Assembly (NCBI RefSeq): GCF_008362905.1
Contig: NZ_VFJB01000003.1
Span: forward strand, 69,501-133,500
DNA from: Deferribacter autotrophicus
Lineage (GTDB): Bacteria > Chrysiogenota > Deferribacteres > Deferribacterales > Deferribacteraceae
Direction of reading: 5' to 3'
Length of the DNA: 64,000 nucleotides
The translations under genes and the position numbers were made by a program. Under the pieces are notes generated by a model that did no database searches, was not told where the DNA came from, and saw nothing but the letters and a program-made list of their open reading frames with translations. Positions 55,196 through 61,332 of this stretch are shown here, piece after piece; the first letter of the stretch is position 1; each line of letters starts with the position of its first letter.

Positions 55196-55952
55196 TAAAG
55201 CTGTTTTTATCATATTTAGTGCGGTTATTGTTTTTTTTCTTGCTTTTCCAGTAGTCAAGCTGTTTTACACCAACGGTTTTTTTAAAATTATTAAGACTAT
55301 CTCAGAAAAAGAGGTATTTGATTCCATTGTTTTAACCTTTAAAGTCTCTTTTTATGCCACTCTTTTTGTATTTTTTACTGGAGTACCCCTTGCATATATA
55401 ATTGCAAGATATGATTTTTTTGGTAAATCGGTTATTGAAGGGGTTATCGATATTCCCACAATGATACCACACACGGCTGCAGGGATTGCGTTACTTGTAG
55501 CCTTTAATAGCGGATTTTTTGCTAAGGTTTTTGATTTTTTGGGAATACAGATGATTGATAGTAAAATAGGGATTATGTTTGGCATGATGTTTTTGTCTGC
55601 CACTTATCTGATTAATGGGGCAAAAGAAGGGTTTAAAAAGGTTGATGTGAAGTATGAGTATGTGGCAAGGACGCTTGGTGCAAGCTGGTTTTCCGCCTTC
55701 GTAAGAGTTGTACTACCTAATGCTAGAAGGGACATTGTAAATGGAATGCTTATGATGTGGGCAAGGGGGCTTGGTGAGTTTGGTGCTGTTGTGATAATTG
55801 CTTATCATCCTATGATAGCACCTGTTTTGATATACGACAGGTTCAATAATTTTGGACTAAAATATTCTGCACCTGTTGCAGCAGCCATGATAATGTTTTC
55901 TTTGGTTATTTTTATCATTGTAAGATTTTTAAATAATCGTAAATCAGGTTAA
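55179..55952 (+). CDS. wtpB: ABC transporter permease, tungstate/molybdate (WtpB/ModB-like)
   Basis: 257 residues with six predicted membrane segments (VFIIFSAVIVFFLAFPVVKL first). The EAA-type coupling loop is YVARTLGASWFSAFVRVVLP, followed by GLGEFGAVVIIAYHP, both typical of ModB/WtpB/CysT permeases. It is last in the transporter operon; its stop overlaps the convergent EAL gene by 9 bp. Confidence 0.9.
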   Translation: MKLKINKAVFIIFSAVIVFFLAFPVVKLFYTNGFFKIIKTISEKEVFDSIVLTFKVSFYATLFVFFTGVPLAYIIARYDFFGKSVIEGVIDIPTMIPHTAAGIALLVAFNSGFFAKVFDFLGIQMIDSKIGIMFGMMFLSATYLINGAKEGFKKVDVKYEYVARTLGASWFSAFVRVVLPNARRDIVNGMLMMWARGLGEFGAVVIIAYHPMIAPVLIYDRFNNFGLKYSAPVAAAMIMFSLVIFIIVRFLNNRKSG

Positions 55953-57182
55953 AAACTTTTTTGGTACTTCAGGTTTTGAGAGATAAAACCCTTGAGCATA
56001 ATCAAATCCCAATTTGTTGATAAGTCTGAGTTTTTCAGCTGAATCTATACCTTCACCAATTATCGCGATATTTCTAAATAGTGAAAGTTCTGTTATAGAC
56101 TTTAAAAGGTATCCTGTAATTGGATTATTTTTGACATTTTCTATTAACTCCTTATCTATTTTTAGAAAATCAATTTGAAGAGATGTAAAAACGTTTAAAT
56201 TTGAATAACCTGATCCAAAGTCGTCTATGGCAAACATTAAATTATATTGTTTTTTTAATTGCCTGAAAGTTTTATTAATTTCATCGAACTTTGCAAGTTC
56301 GGATATTTCTGTTAATTCAATACAAATTTCACTAGTGTTAAGCCCTTTATTTTTATAAGTATCAAGAATTGAAGTAATCATATCAACATATTGGTAAAAA
56401 TATTCAGGGACTATGTTGAAAAAATAGATTCTATGGTCGTTTGTATCAATTTTATATTGGAGTGCTTTATTGATTATTACCTCATCACTTTTCATGTTAA
56501 TTTTAAAATATGTAAAAATATCTATAAGTTGAGATGCGTCATAAATTTTATTGTTATGACAAACTCTTGTTAAAACCTCATAACCAAAAATCTTGTTTGA
56601 ATTTAAATCATAAATCCCCTGAAATGCTGGTACAAGGTGTTTGTCAAAGTTTACATCGTAAATGAAATCGATAAATGTTTTTAGTTTTTCAAATATAGGA
56701 GATTCTGTTTTGTCAAAATAATAAATACCTTCTAATTCCTTTGATTTAATGAATCTTGAAAACATAATTAAATAGTCAATAGCTTCATTTAAATTCTGAA
56801 TATCATTTGGATAGTGAATTACTGCAATTCTATAATAAAGTTTAATCTTTAAATTTTCGCTTAAGAATATGGGTTTATCAAGCTCTTCTTTCAAATATTT
56901 TAATTTCTCTATGCAATTATTTTTGTTACCTTTTAAAAAGAGTATAAAATCATCAGCATAGATGTTTTCAACAAAATCTTCATCTGTAAGGTTAGATAAA
57001 AGACGTTCGGATACTATTTCCAATAGTTTATTAGTAATATTAAATCCATATTTAAATCCCAAAAATGAAAAATTATTTATATCTATGTGGACAATACAAC
57101 ATTCATGTTGTGATAATTTTTTTAAATACCTGCTTCTATTGGTGTGTAACTTACTTTTTATTTTTGGTATTAACGCATGCAT
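55944..57182 (-). CDS. Degenerate GGDEF plus EAL domain protein
   Basis: 412 residues, soluble. N-terminal GGDEF-like domain (IVHIDINNFSFLGFKYGFNI) with the signature replaced by YADDF, so no cyclase activity is expected. The EAL domain (~180-412) keeps key phosphodiesterase residues: FGYEVLTR (EVL for EAL), AIDDFGSGYSNL, FLKIDKELI and GEGIDS. It could break down cyclic di-GMP or act as a receptor. AGGA precedes the ATG. Last gene of the rlmB operon. Confidence 0.85.
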   Translation of the reverse strand: MHALIPKIKSKLHTNRSRYLKKLSQHECCIVHIDINNFSFLGFKYGFNITNKLLEIVSERLLSNLTDEDFVENIYADDFILFLKGNKNNCIEKLKYLKEELDKPIFLSENLKIKLYYRIAVIHYPNDIQNLNEAIDYLIMFSRFIKSKELEGIYYFDKTESPIFEKLKTFIDFIYDVNFDKHLVPAFQGIYDLNSNKIFGYEVLTRVCHNNKIYDASQLIDIFTYFKINMKSDEVIINKALQYKIDTNDHRIYFFNIVPEYFYQYVDMITSILDTYKNKGLNTSEICIELTEISELAKFDEINKTFRQLKKQYNLMFAIDDFGSGYSNLNVFTSLQIDFLKIDKELIENVKNNPITGYLLKSITELSLFRNIAIIGEGIDSAEKLRLINKLGFDYAQGFYLSKPEVPKKFLT

Positions 57183-57185
57183 TAA

Positions 57186-58160
57186 TTATCCTAAGAATTG
57201 ATTAATACTATTGTAATTTATTATTGTAGTATTGTAAACATATTTTAAAAAGCGATCAGGAATGTTATCAATGCCATATATGGCACCTGCTATTGCTCCT
57301 GTAACAGCACCTATGGTATCACTATCACCACCAATATTGATGGCCTTTAGAATAGCTTCTTCAAAGCAACTTGATTCCATATTGATCCAGATGGCTGTCT
57401 GCAACGTAGTAACGCAGTATGGTGTTGTAATGTAAATGGAAGGTTTTTCAAAAATTTGGTTAATGTCTTCAATCAAGTTTATAAATTGTTCCTTTATTTT
57501 GAAAAGGGCATCAGATAAGGAGTGATTGTTGATAATATATTTAAGAAGCAGATTATAGATACTGTTTGTGAATAAGGCTATGGGGTGAGCATGAGTTACA
57601 GATGCAGATTCAGCTGATGCTTCTATTAACTCCTTATCTGTTTTATCTAGATAATAAACGGTAATAATAGATGAGCGCATTAAGGCACCATTACCGTTTG
57701 ATAGTCTATCCTTTGGTGCGACACCTGTTTTTAATGCTGTATAGGTTGTCCTTCCAATTCCTATAGCCTCGCCTGTGGCAGAGTATGTGCCATTATAAAA
57801 CCATTTCAGATAGTGAGTTCGTTCGTTTTCTTTATCAACCTTACCCTTTTCGGATAAAGAAGTGGCAAGGGCAAGTAGCATAGCTGTATCATCGCTCCAT
57901 TCACCTGGATTCAAGTTTAGGTGCCCGCCACCTATGATGTTTTTCTGAAACTCACCTTCAAGTTTGACCGGAGGGTATGGTTTTAGCACACCAAAACTGC
58001 CTTCTTGGGTGATTCCAAGCATATCTCCGATTATATTGCCGGCGATCATACCAGAAATCTTTGATTTTCTTTCCTTTTTAAGCTCTTCAAATACCGTCTG
58101 GGTTTCTCTCTTTTGCATGCAATCAGCTACTTTTTCATAGTTTTCATTTATAAAACACAT
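57186..58160 (-). CDS. ADP-ribosylglycohydrolase family protein
   Basis: ATG at 58160 overlaps the upstream stop (TGATG). The fold signature is clear: KISGMIAGNIIGDMLGIT, GEWSDDTAMLLALATSL (Mg ligands), NGNGALMRSS and NIGGDSDTIGAVTGAIAGAI. 324 residues. Family members such as DraG remove ADP-ribose from Arg side chains; others act on ADP-ribose compounds. The substrate here is unknown. The gene is between a PEP-synthase-like gene and the EAL gene. Confidence 0.92.
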   Translation of the reverse strand: MCFINENYEKVADCMQKRETQTVFEELKKERKSKISGMIAGNIIGDMLGITQEGSFGVLKPYPPVKLEGEFQKNIIGGGHLNLNPGEWSDDTAMLLALATSLSEKGKVDKENERTHYLKWFYNGTYSATGEAIGIGRTTYTALKTGVAPKDRLSNGNGALMRSSIITVYYLDKTDKELIEASAESASVTHAHPIALFTNSIYNLLLKYIINNHSLSDALFKIKEQFINLIEDINQIFEKPSIYITTPYCVTTLQTAIWINMESSCFEEAILKAINIGGDSDTIGAVTGAIAGAIYGIDNIPDRFLKYVYNTTIINYNSINQFLG

Positions 58161-59923
58161 CAATTATTTTTTCCCACAGTCAAAATACCATTTTTAAGCT
58201 GCAGTGCAGAATCGCCAAAAAATAATGGAGCAAACCTCATTCCTGTAATTATTGGAGTATCGGTTAATGCTGCATACTCCATGAGATATGAATAAATGGG
58301 TGCTGATTCCACAATTATACCCTTTGCTTTAGTGGCTTTGAGTAATAGAGGTAATGGAATGGCTTTTGAAAAGATGAAATCTGTGTCAGGTTCGTCATTA
58401 ACGCCTTTTAGATAAGAAACTTTCCCAGAAATTTCCTTTTCAAAGAAAATTAAAGTGGAAAAGGTGGTTGTTTCTTTGATTTTTGAAATCATATTTGTGA
58501 CTATATTGTGGATTTGTGGAATATCTTCTTCATAAATTTCATTTGGAACTATTTGCATGGAATATCTTTCAAACTGCCATATTTTGAAACAGTAATTAAA
58601 CAAATAATTGGCATAAAAATTATCACTATAGATGTCAAAAAATTCTTTGAAATCGAAATTATATGGGGAGATTCCCTTTTTTAGTTTATGATTTTCTACG
58701 AGTTCATCTTTTTTGCTTTCAATGATATTTTTTACCTTATCTAAGACATCATTGGCAAAAAGAATTGTTTTATCCTTTATATCAAGGAGTTCATGAATTT
58801 CTGAGATTGCCTGCATAAGTTTCTTTTTTTTCAAAATTAATGCAATTTTAGGAAAGTACTCTTTTAAAAGTGTATCCAAATCAAATGAGTTTTTTTCATA
58901 TAGCTTAGAAAAATTGATTCTTTCATAGGAAAAATCAAAAAATGGATAGAGATTTTGATTACTGAATAGCAAAGTTGATTCTCTTGAAAGATAAATCACT
59001 TTTAAAATTTTTGAAATATCAGGTTGGATTTTGTAAAGGGTTGCAAAGGCATTGTTGAATCTGAAAAAGAAAATAAAGAAAATAGCAGATAAATTGGCAA
59101 TGGCAGTGAATAAAGTATCAAGAAAATTTTCAAAATTTAGCTCATCGAGGGAGGCCTTTGCATCATTAAAGTAACTTTCAAAGTTTATATCCTTTATCAT
59201 AGAAAGATCATACTCTTTGAATTTTATTTTTTTCAGTTTTAGAAAAAGATGGGGTGCATAATTTAGCAGATAGAAATGGTCATTTCCTTTTAACGTTCTA
59301 AAAATCATGTCAAGATTATTCATATTTATAAAGGGTTTTCCAAATATGTGTTTTATGGAAGGCTCAAAAGTTTTTATATCATTTTCTGCAAAAAGTGGGT
59401 TTATGACATTTTCAAAGATTTTGAAGAGGGAAGCTGAAAAAGGGGATGTAGTTTCGGGTAGCAGATATGAGAAAAAGTTGTTTGAGTAAATAGTGTTTCC
59501 TTTTATAAGTCCATCATGAAAAAGTGAGTATTCTACATGTGTAAGTGGAGGAAATGGTAAAAAATCACGCTTATCAAAATATATCGATGGCTTTGGAATA
59601 CTTTTGCATTGTAATAGATATAAATTTTTATCATCAACTCCTGCATCGATTTCTATGTGTTCTAAATAGTCTCTTTCAAAGGATGTGATAATTTCTGCAA
59701 TCTTTGTGTAAAAAGTTTTTGAAAGAGTGTTTTCCCCTTTTATCTCCTTAACAAAGTTTTTGTAAGTTCCTTTTATCAAGACAGTTTTGAAATTTTTTCC
59801 TTCAACTGTTATGTAGCCAAAATTTCCTTTGTAGCTATTTACAATTTTAAAAGTTTTTTGGATATTTATTGAATCATTAATTTCATGGAATCCGCATTTG
59901 ACAAGTGTCTCTTTCAGATTCAT
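58160..59923 (-). CDS. PEP synthase-like protein without ATP-grasp core or catalytic His
   Basis: 587 residues. The segment at ~85-115 (KIAEIITSFERDYLEHIEID...LYLLQCKSIPKPS) looks like the last strands of the PEP-synthase/PPDK nucleotide domain (normally ...DIEWA...LYILQSRPIT). The C-terminal ~65 residues (FIFSKAIPLPLLLKATKAKG, then TDTPIITGM) fit the swivelling phosphohistidine domain. Where the His motif is expected (GGxxSHxAI) the text is ESAPIYSYLMEYAAL, without His. The helical middle is unrecognised. So this is likely a pseudoenzyme or has a new role. It overlaps rlmB by 4 bp. Confidence 0.55.
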   Translation of the reverse strand: MNLKETLVKCGFHEINDSINIQKTFKIVNSYKGNFGYITVEGKNFKTVLIKGTYKNFVKEIKGENTLSKTFYTKIAEIITSFERDYLEHIEIDAGVDDKNLYLLQCKSIPKPSIYFDKRDFLPFPPLTHVEYSLFHDGLIKGNTIYSNNFFSYLLPETTSPFSASLFKIFENVINPLFAENDIKTFEPSIKHIFGKPFINMNNLDMIFRTLKGNDHFYLLNYAPHLFLKLKKIKFKEYDLSMIKDINFESYFNDAKASLDELNFENFLDTLFTAIANLSAIFFIFFFRFNNAFATLYKIQPDISKILKVIYLSRESTLLFSNQNLYPFFDFSYERINFSKLYEKNSFDLDTLLKEYFPKIALILKKKKLMQAISEIHELLDIKDKTILFANDVLDKVKNIIESKKDELVENHKLKKGISPYNFDFKEFFDIYSDNFYANYLFNYCFKIWQFERYSMQIVPNEIYEEDIPQIHNIVTNMISKIKETTTFSTLIFFEKEISGKVSYLKGVNDEPDTDFIFSKAIPLPLLLKATKAKGIIVESAPIYSYLMEYAALTDTPIITGMRFAPLFFGDSALQLKNGILTVGKNN

Positions 59924-60600
59924 TGTTTCCCCTTGAAAAAGTGATAAAAGACAATGGCTGATGACTGAGAGACATTGAGTGAGTCGATTTTACCGTCCAT
60001 CTCAATTTTAAATGTGGTGTGCGCACGTTTTAAGACATTGGGTCTGATCCCTTTTTCTTCCGAGCCTAAAATGATGCAATTTCGCTCAGTGGTATAAATT
60101 TCTGAGAGTGTTTTTTTGCCATCCACATCAGCAGCTGAAATAAAAAATCCCACCTCAAGCAATCTATCAAGGGTTCTTGCAATATTAGTAACCTGGACGA
60201 TTCTGGAATAGATAAGACTGCCTGCACTTGCTTTAAAAACGGCTGCAGTGACAGGGCATTGATTATTTTTTGCCACAATAAAATAGGTTATACCGAAGCA
60301 ATGGCCTGCTCTTATGATAGCACCGAAATTTTGTGGATCCTGAATCTGATCAAGGACAGCTATATTTTTTTCTAGAATCAAGTCATCATATACTTCATCA
60401 AAATCGTAATATCTAAAAGAGATTTCTGCTGCCACAGATTGGGCAGATTTAGGGAATTTTTTATCAAAAATTGCTGCGGGTAAAATTTCGTAAGGGATAT
60501 TTTCATCAAATTTTAAACAAATTTCGTCTCTGAAAATAAGCTTTTTTACTTTTTTGATTTTCAAAGCTTCTTTTACAGGGTTTTTACCATAAATTATCAT
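59920..60600 (-). CDS. rlmB: RlmB/TrmH-type rRNA 2'-O-methyltransferase (SpoU family)
   Basis: SPOUT methyltransferase. Motif 1 AVLDQIQDPQNFGAIIRAGH, motif 2 IILGSEEKGIRPNVL, motif 3 IEMDGKIDSLNVSQSSAIVFY. The N-terminal MIIYGKNPVKEAL substrate-binding domain matches RlmB, which methylates G2251 of 23S rRNA. ATG at 60600 chosen over a TTG nine bases up. First gene of the four-gene operon. Confidence 0.93.
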   Translation of the reverse strand: MIIYGKNPVKEALKIKKVKKLIFRDEICLKFDENIPYEILPAAIFDKKFPKSAQSVAAEISFRYYDFDEVYDDLILEKNIAVLDQIQDPQNFGAIIRAGHCFGITYFIVAKNNQCPVTAAVFKASAGSLIYSRIVQVTNIARTLDRLLEVGFFISAADVDGKKTLSEIYTTERNCIILGSEEKGIRPNVLKRAHTTFKIEMDGKIDSLNVSQSSAIVFYHFFKGKQ

Positions 60601-60795: not shown

Positions 60796-61332
60796 TCATA
60801 TTACAGGCTCCATTTTGTTTTTGTAATGCATAATAGAAATAAAGAAGAACAAAATTATTAAAGAAATTTTAATTTGTATATTTTGTGAAAAAATGATTAT
60901 TAACCAAAACAGGTTGTTTAACAATATCTTGAACGGTTGAAAATTTGATAGCTTCCATTTGAAGATAAATAATAGCAACAGAAAGGTGAAAAATGATAAA
61001 AGAATTATAGGGAACAGATTATCAAATAGGTAAAAGGAAAAATATAAGGAAAGAGTAAACAAAGGCAAAAATAGCAGTAAAAACAAAATGAAAAAGAATT
61101 TTCCTACCTTTTTAAAGAAGAGAGAAAAAGGGTTTATTTTAAAAGGGTAAGAAAAGATATACGCCTTTGCAAGTCCTATCAAAATTAGCATAGTGGCAAA
61201 TAGTGAAAAATTTAGCTTTTTTTCAGAGAGCAAGACGAAAGGGACCCATATAGGAATGTAAGCAAACAGAAAATTTAGTGTAAAAAAAGGGTTTAATATG
61301 GCAAATTTCAAAATCGTTATGCTATGATTCAT
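60796..61332 (-). CDS. Small integral membrane protein, 178 aa, unknown
   Basis: Not recognised. Very hydrophobic with about five predicted membrane segments (LNFLFAYIPIWVPFVLL, LFATMLILIGLAKAYIF, FFILFLLLFLPLFTLSLYF, IILLSFFTFLLLLFIFKW, LIIIFSQNIQ...LIILFFFISI). Phe, Leu and Ile make up most of the sequence. The start lies within the last 11 bases of mutS, so they are probably translated together. The gap 60601-60774 behind it shows nothing but the rlmB leader. Confidence 0.6.
   Translation of the reverse strand: MNHSITILKFAILNPFFTLNFLFAYIPIWVPFVLLSEKKLNFSLFATMLILIGLAKAYIFSYPFKINPFSLFFKKVGKFFFILFLLLFLPLFTLSLYFSFYLFDNLFPIILLSFFTFLLLLFIFKWKLSNFQPFKILLNNLFWLIIIFSQNIQIKISLIILFFFISIMHYKNKMEPVI

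Follow-up and report, generated by a model that had tools for sequence, protein, structure and literature searches.

A 64,000-nucleotide stretch of the Deferribacter autotrophicus genome (the window; positions 69501-133500 of contig NZ_VFJB01000003.1, host genome 2.5 Mb) holds four consecutive minus-strand genes that, by open reading frame (ORF) calls and the window sequence, encode an rlmB-like methyltransferase, a protein of 587 amino acids (aa), an ADP-ribosylglycohydrolase and a GGDEF-EAL protein. The sequence bears out the tight junctions that an initial annotation of this DNA had given for them, i.e., a 4-base-pair (bp) overlap between the first two genes (59920-59923), a 1-bp overlap between the second and the third (TGATG, shared base 58160) and a 3-bp gap before the EAL gene (57183-57185). 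The second product had been described as a pseudoenzyme resembling phosphoenolpyruvate (PEP) synthase, with an unknown helical middle of about 350 residues. It is indeed best seen as a pseudoenzyme of the dikinase superfamily, but both its fold and its profile place the family with rifampin phosphotransferase (RPH) and not with PEP synthase; in this fold assignment, and in the loss of the dikinase residues, we have high confidence.

Pfam has no match for the 587-aa protein at E ≤ 5, and NCBIfam has only two, both at chance level. An AlphaFold2 model, computed from an alignment of 34 family members including the window protein (alignment A1, used also for the column counts below), reached a predicted local distance difference test score (pLDDT) of 92.8 and a predicted template modelling score of 0.91. 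Searched against the PDB with Foldseek, this model gave six matches at E ≤ 0.001, all of them RPH-Lm (E 3.5e-13 to 2.1e-10), the next match being the separate RPH ATP-binding domain (E 0.039). A second model, of L064 (pLDDT 87.1), a family member that shares only about 20% identity with the window protein, had the same six RPH-Lm entries as its sole matches at E ≤ 0.001; a search of viral structures returned nothing at that threshold. VIA-align superimposed residues 132-585 on residues 317-867 of 5fbu (Z 18.8, root-mean-square deviation (rmsd) 4.2 Å, 397 residues) and residues 6-111 on residues 29-336 of HpeI (Z 11.5, rmsd 1.9 Å, 93 residues), and the remnant at residues 1-111 also aligns to 5hv6_A 23-314 (Z 9.5). 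The three-domain plan of RPH, i.e., ATP-grasp, rifampin-binding and swivel domains with the His domain at the C terminus, is present, the ATP-grasp part in reduced form only. The initial annotation had proposed comparing a predicted structure with PpsA, PPDK and rifampicin phosphotransferase; the comparison yielded the RPH fold and only a partial agreement with PEP synthase (2ols, Z 10.1, 183 residues, rmsd 12.3).

Profile comparisons point the same way. Aligned with hhalign to 12 RPH-like ORFs (the reference set, from an NF004878 scan of 384 genomes), the family scored 128.2 over 491 columns (probability 98.3, E 1.5e-14); none of 20 controls (one reversed, 19 column-shuffled) exceeded 24.3. 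A scan of the 384 genomes with the family profile matched 53 at E ≤ 0.01, namely 42 of the order Deferribacterales and 11 others, and these 11 (E 2.4e-7 to 0.0069) are all ORFs of 837-986 aa that an RPH-type model also matches. In sequence searches of the PDB, the single 587-aa protein found no match, and the family profile, with a mean column identity of 32% and six invariant columns in its alignment, found RPH at E 0.19 only. Owing to the fold, hhalign and profile-scan matches, the supposedly unknown middle can be equated with the rifampin-binding domain of RPH, and the traces of nucleotide and phosphohistidine domains noted before are real by hhalign. PEP synthase and PPDK share the ATP-grasp and swivel domains of the superfamily but lack the RPH middle domain, having in its stead a His domain at the centre and a pyruvate domain at the C terminus, according to the RPH-Lm study (PMC4844700). 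We rejected them as the parent family since the matches to RPH are much the stronger and extend over the middle domain; neither a C-terminal pyruvate/PEP-binding domain nor a central His domain was found in the 587-aa protein, where the swivel-like domain is C-terminal. Two other candidates for nearest kin, HpeH-type proteins (E 0.0041) and the PRK05849 "PEP-utilizing enzyme" group (E 0.12), gave weaker matches and were likewise set aside.

Two further groups of PEP-utilizing proteins were seen. Six ORFs of the phylum (L144, L145, L146, L147, L148 and L150; ~850-914 aa) make up a second degenerate PEP-synthase-like protein, with a PPDK_N ATP-grasp domain, no PEP-utilizers match among the matches listed and an N-terminal stretch that we presume to be KaiC-like. 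PRK05849-type enzymes are encoded on plasmids (L153 3675-6068, an NF004508 member, and L155, L156 and L158), where they adjoin a gamma-glutamyl-GABA hydrolase family gene and/or a phosphocholine cytidylyltransferase gene.

According to the RPH-Lm study (PMC4844700), the ATP half-reaction needs Lys22, Arg117 and Thr136, and transfer from His825 needs Arg666-Glu667. A complete ATP-grasp domain was not found in the 587-aa family: the N-lobe with the Lys22, Arg117 and Thr136 positions is absent, about 111 residues remain, and the hhalign alignment to RPH begins at residue 65 of the window protein, opposite RPH-like residue 268. At the place of His825 stands Y546, and the column reads Y19 F4 L4 H3 P3 A1 over the 34 rows, i.e., the His is replaced in 31 of them; the corresponding GG..[TSC]H motif is present in 10/12 reference ORFs. 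Lys670 falls on a variable column, and there is no conservation in the columns that our reading of the hhalign alignment assigns to Glu297 and Gln309 (the latter presumably with a role in RPH). The Arg666-Glu667 position is retained in altered form, with Arg in 27 rows, Lys in 3 and another residue in 4 in the first column, and Asp in 34/34 in the second (K383-D384 in the window protein); further near-invariant charged residues are K184, R314, D330, R453 and D467. Both active sites thus look disabled, the second partly, because the N-lobe, the His and Lys670 are lost while (R/K)-Asp is kept, and the earlier statement that most of the ATP-grasp part and the catalytic His are missing proved right. 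Compared with RPH-Lm (PDB 5FBS/5FBT/5FBU/5HV1; PMC4844700), the family has the same domain order and fold, with an ATP-grasp part, a cross-shaped substrate domain, a C-terminal swivel and (R/K)-Asp at the Arg-Glu position, but at ~11% identity it is ~280 residues shorter, without the N-lobe, the catalytic His and Lys670. As neither a complete ATP-grasp domain nor the catalytic His was found, we class it as an RPH-fold pseudo-dikinase and not as an RPH enzyme, and phosphorylation of rifamycins is not expected of it.

Genes of the four-gene cluster and parts of the 587-aa protein, in window coordinates
Feature	Position	Strand	Evidence
rlmB-like SpoU/TrmH-family rRNA 2'-O-methyltransferase, 229 aa	59920-60609	-	Pfam, TIGR00186, motifs
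587-aa RPH-fold pseudo-dikinase	58160-59923	-	AlphaFold2 model, Foldseek, hhalign
ATP-grasp domain remnant, residues 1-111	59591-59923	-	VIA-align to HpeI, 5hv6_A
RPH rifampin-binding-domain equivalent, ~residues 130-480	58484-59536	-	VIA-align to 5fbu, hhalign
K383-D384, place of RPH Arg666-Glu667	58772-58777	-	hhalign, column counts
Swivel (phosphohistidine-type) domain, ~residues 487-585	58169-58465	-	hhalign, fold match
Y546, place of catalytic His825	58286-58288	-	hhalign, column counts
ADP-ribosylglycohydrolase, DraG/ARH type	57186-58160	-	PF03747; ATG start, TTG one codon upstream
GGDEF(degenerate)-EAL protein, 412 aa	55944-57182	-	Pfam EAL + GGDEF

The surviving charge pair invites the thought that the protein is still an enzyme, one that would keep the second half-reaction and pass phosphate from one small molecule to another, or from a partner that is phosphorylated to a ligand bound in the substrate domain, through (R/K)-Asp and without an ATP-grasp domain or His of its own. 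The pair it would use is essential for the second reaction of RPH according to PMC4844700, and in the work on HpeHI/PpsAB-type two-component phenolic dikinases (PMC12167813) HpeH alone transfers phosphate from phosphorylated phenol. These dikinases resemble the 587-aa protein in carrying substrate and swivel domains in a chain of ~600 residues without ATP-grasp, and residues 6-111 of the 587-aa protein align to HpeI. However, in the same source HpeH requires its own His (H581Q is inactive), the residue so widely replaced here, and the Lys670 position is variable. The five HpeH-type ORFs moreover match only 178 columns (window residues 401-579), far more weakly than RPH does, and an ATP-grasp partner gene was not found: the genome has a single PF01326 frame, which is an ORF of 878 aa (C4) and of PPDK size, and nothing HpeI-like was found. 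We therefore think residual catalysis unlikely.

A precedent for an RPH-like protein with another occupation is PspR of Haloferax mediterranei, reported (PMC10948481) to lack rifampicin phosphotransferase activity and to act as a repressor. Following this example, the 587-aa protein would be a DNA-binding transcriptional repressor. PspR is archaeal, keeps its ATP-binding domain and His domain and is reported to bind phaRP promoter DNA, whereas a predicted isoelectric point below 7 in 29/34 members of the 587-aa family makes DNA binding less likely, and the only DNA-binding family match in Pfam and NCBIfam is CadR-PbrR at chance level (E 0.095). A repressor role accordingly seems rather improbable to us.

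A concrete lead comes from the gene neighbourhood. In a phylum sample of 50 genomes, 45 of the order and 5 others, the family occurs in 42/45 order genomes and in 0/5 of the others, and by coordinates a glycohydrolase gene lies directly downstream in 13/42 carriers. By family of the order, the linked pair is found in f1 (2/2), f2 (4/4), f8 (3/3) and 4/11 carriers of f6. The linked gene is a member of the ADP-ribosylglycohydrolases (DraG/ARH, PF03747), the window copy matching Pfam ADP_ribosyl_GH at E 1.7e-55 (189.2 bits against a cut-off of 26.2). DDT, NGNG, VTH.HP and GGD.DT are invariant in 11/11 linked copies, the DDT and GGD.DT motifs being those that we take to bind Mg, so that going by these residues the linked glycohydrolase is probably active. 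Within the order, linked and free-standing copies separate: a glycohydrolase tree built from 11 linked and 18 unlinked sequences has every linked one on the same side of a branch, with 0/500 shuffles as low. (Of 20 unlinked places fetched, L203 and L206 were left out for want of a usable ORF; G016 and G022 are counted as linked by coordinates and are absent from this tree.) On the tree of the 587-aa family itself (33 rows), the linked label needs three changes, compatible with a single gain plus two losses. Fourteen order genomes (11 of f7 and 3 of f4) have no PF03747 match, and all of them carry the 587-aa family. Given that the family is kept without a linked glycohydrolase, or any at all, it seems older than the pairing and independent of it. 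Elsewhere its gene stands after the SAICAR synthetase gene (f7), alone, or before dnaA (f4, 2/4). In f7 we also noticed a 305-aa ORF just downstream of the 587-aa gene (e.g., L039 5449-6366, minus strand), with a weak outer-membrane-barrel match and, in several loci, an 8-17 nucleotide overlap with it.

The other two genes of the cluster do not travel with this pair. The rlmB-like product matches Pfam SpoU_methylase (E 5.7e-34) and carries the motifs NFGAIIR, GSEEKG and SLNVSQS, its score against the RlmB model TIGR00186 (153.5 bits) lying slightly under the cut-off of 160.15. Between it and mutS there is a hydrophobic ORF of 178 aa (60796-61332, minus strand) without any Pfam or NCBIfam match, of which a 30%-identical homologue sits at the same position in a genome of the same genus (L034). 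The last gene of the cluster encodes a protein with an EAL domain (Pfam, E 2.1e-38; EVL, ELTE, DDFGSG, KID and EGI motifs present) and a weak GGDEF match (E 4.8e-09), in which the GGDEF motif was not found and ADDF stands at its place. Because the EAL motifs are kept and GGDEF reads ADDF, and on what we assume these motifs to mean, the protein is predicted to act probably as a phosphodiesterase only. The initial annotation had gathered all four genes into an undescribed regulatory or salvage system, which would join rRNA methylation, ADP-ribose removal and cyclic-di-GMP. The overlaps and the 3-bp gap in this species speak for it, but rlmB adjoins the family gene in only 1/33 relative loci (the same-genus L034), and a homologue of the EAL protein was found in none of the 33, L034 included. 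As the family is also present in genomes without a glycohydrolase, the four-gene unit is not conserved, and as a conserved unit it is refuted; we judge such a system very improbable. The EAL gene is a neighbour in this species only, outside the conserved unit, and the glycohydrolase pair itself is a recurrent link in part of the order. Promoter-like sites are at chance level and terminator-like sites number 6 against 2.6 expected, neither of which enters the argument.

The distribution of the family within the order bears on whether the gene is functional at all. There is one match each in 41/42 carriers, G022 having two pieces on two contigs, and a search of plasmids for the family gave no match. 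The three order genomes without the gene are G005, G012 and G035, and both genomes of f5 are among those lacking it; G035 also lacks the usual upstream neighbour, so that a deletion there is not distinguishable from an assembly gap. The long PEP-utilizer ORFs of these three genomes (783-827 aa) were considered as intact homologues and rejected, as the family profile does not match them; those of G005 and G012 resemble, by blastp, a 580-aa ORF of G002. One carrier, G011 (L062, contig C136), has an in-frame TAG that leaves an ORF of 445 aa, with sequencing error and decay indistinguishable; this copy is included in the alignments and column counts but not in the 33-row tree. Among the 33 relatives of the window protein, 27 pairs share more than 55% identity. 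For the 22 of these whose dS is finite, the ratio of nonsynonymous to synonymous substitution rates (dN/dS) lies at 0.057-0.295, the other 5/27 being saturated and dS near saturation in several, a sign that the family is under purifying selection. A decaying or neutral gene, which the low identity and the TAG in the G011 copy might suggest, is refuted by the selection test, with dN/dS well below 1 in 22/22 measurable pairs, and by the six invariant columns and near-universal presence in the order, and we give it hardly any credence.

The best reading, in our view, is an order-specific pseudo-dikinase that acts as a ligand-binding regulator or adaptor. By fold, profile and residue counts it descends from an RPH-type dikinase of three domains; the ATP-grasp N-lobe and the phosphohistidine have been lost, and the cross-shaped substrate-binding domain has been retained together with the swivel domain. 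Judging by the missing residues, there would be no phosphorylation by the dikinase route; the retained cleft, with (R/K)-Asp, K184, R314, D330, R453 and D467, may bind a protein or some small ligand, and the swivel domain, docked and devoid of its His, could serve as a lid or an interaction surface. In four families, where the gene is placed before an apparently active glycohydrolase, the overlapping gene order suggests that it probably regulates or partners that enzyme, and an older, more general role would need no glycohydrolase. Taken as a whole, the statement that this is a non-catalytic RPH-fold protein with a binding role appears to us reasonably probable, and the specific sensor or adaptor mechanism we offer tentatively. 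Several observations weigh against this reading: the glycohydrolase does not adjoin the 587-aa gene in 29/42 carriers, and branch support for a single origin of the linked glycohydrolases is modest (60/90, 58% of bootstrap trees); a His stands at the catalytic position in 3/34 rows (L037, L044 and L057), scattered across the family tree; and whole-chain TM-scores against RPH are ~0.3-0.47 with rmsd above 11 Å (Foldseek), from which it follows that domain placement differs from that in the RPH crystals.

We found no description of the 587-aa family in the open-access literature, subscription journals lying mostly outside the search. RPH-type dikinases are a large group whose substrates are mostly unknown (PMC4844700). 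The present member is found across a lineage, apparently has both phosphotransfer steps disabled and yet retains the charge pair of the second site, which suggests that the substrate scaffold can serve a purpose even in the absence of catalysis. We regard the family assignment and the losses as solid, and for a gene of the lineage core they are somewhat unexpected; being single-copy, the gene offers a setting in which non-catalytic use could be tested, and its recurrent link to a glycohydrolase supplies a concrete candidate partner. The boldest version, that in the whole order a dikinase of the antibiotic-kinase type has become a ligand sensor without catalysis, belonging to the core of the lineage, and that several families wired this sensor to a glycohydrolase, we consider doubtful. 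If true, it would amount to a new kind of ligand-gated control over the de-ADP-ribosylation of proteins, nucleic acids or small molecules.

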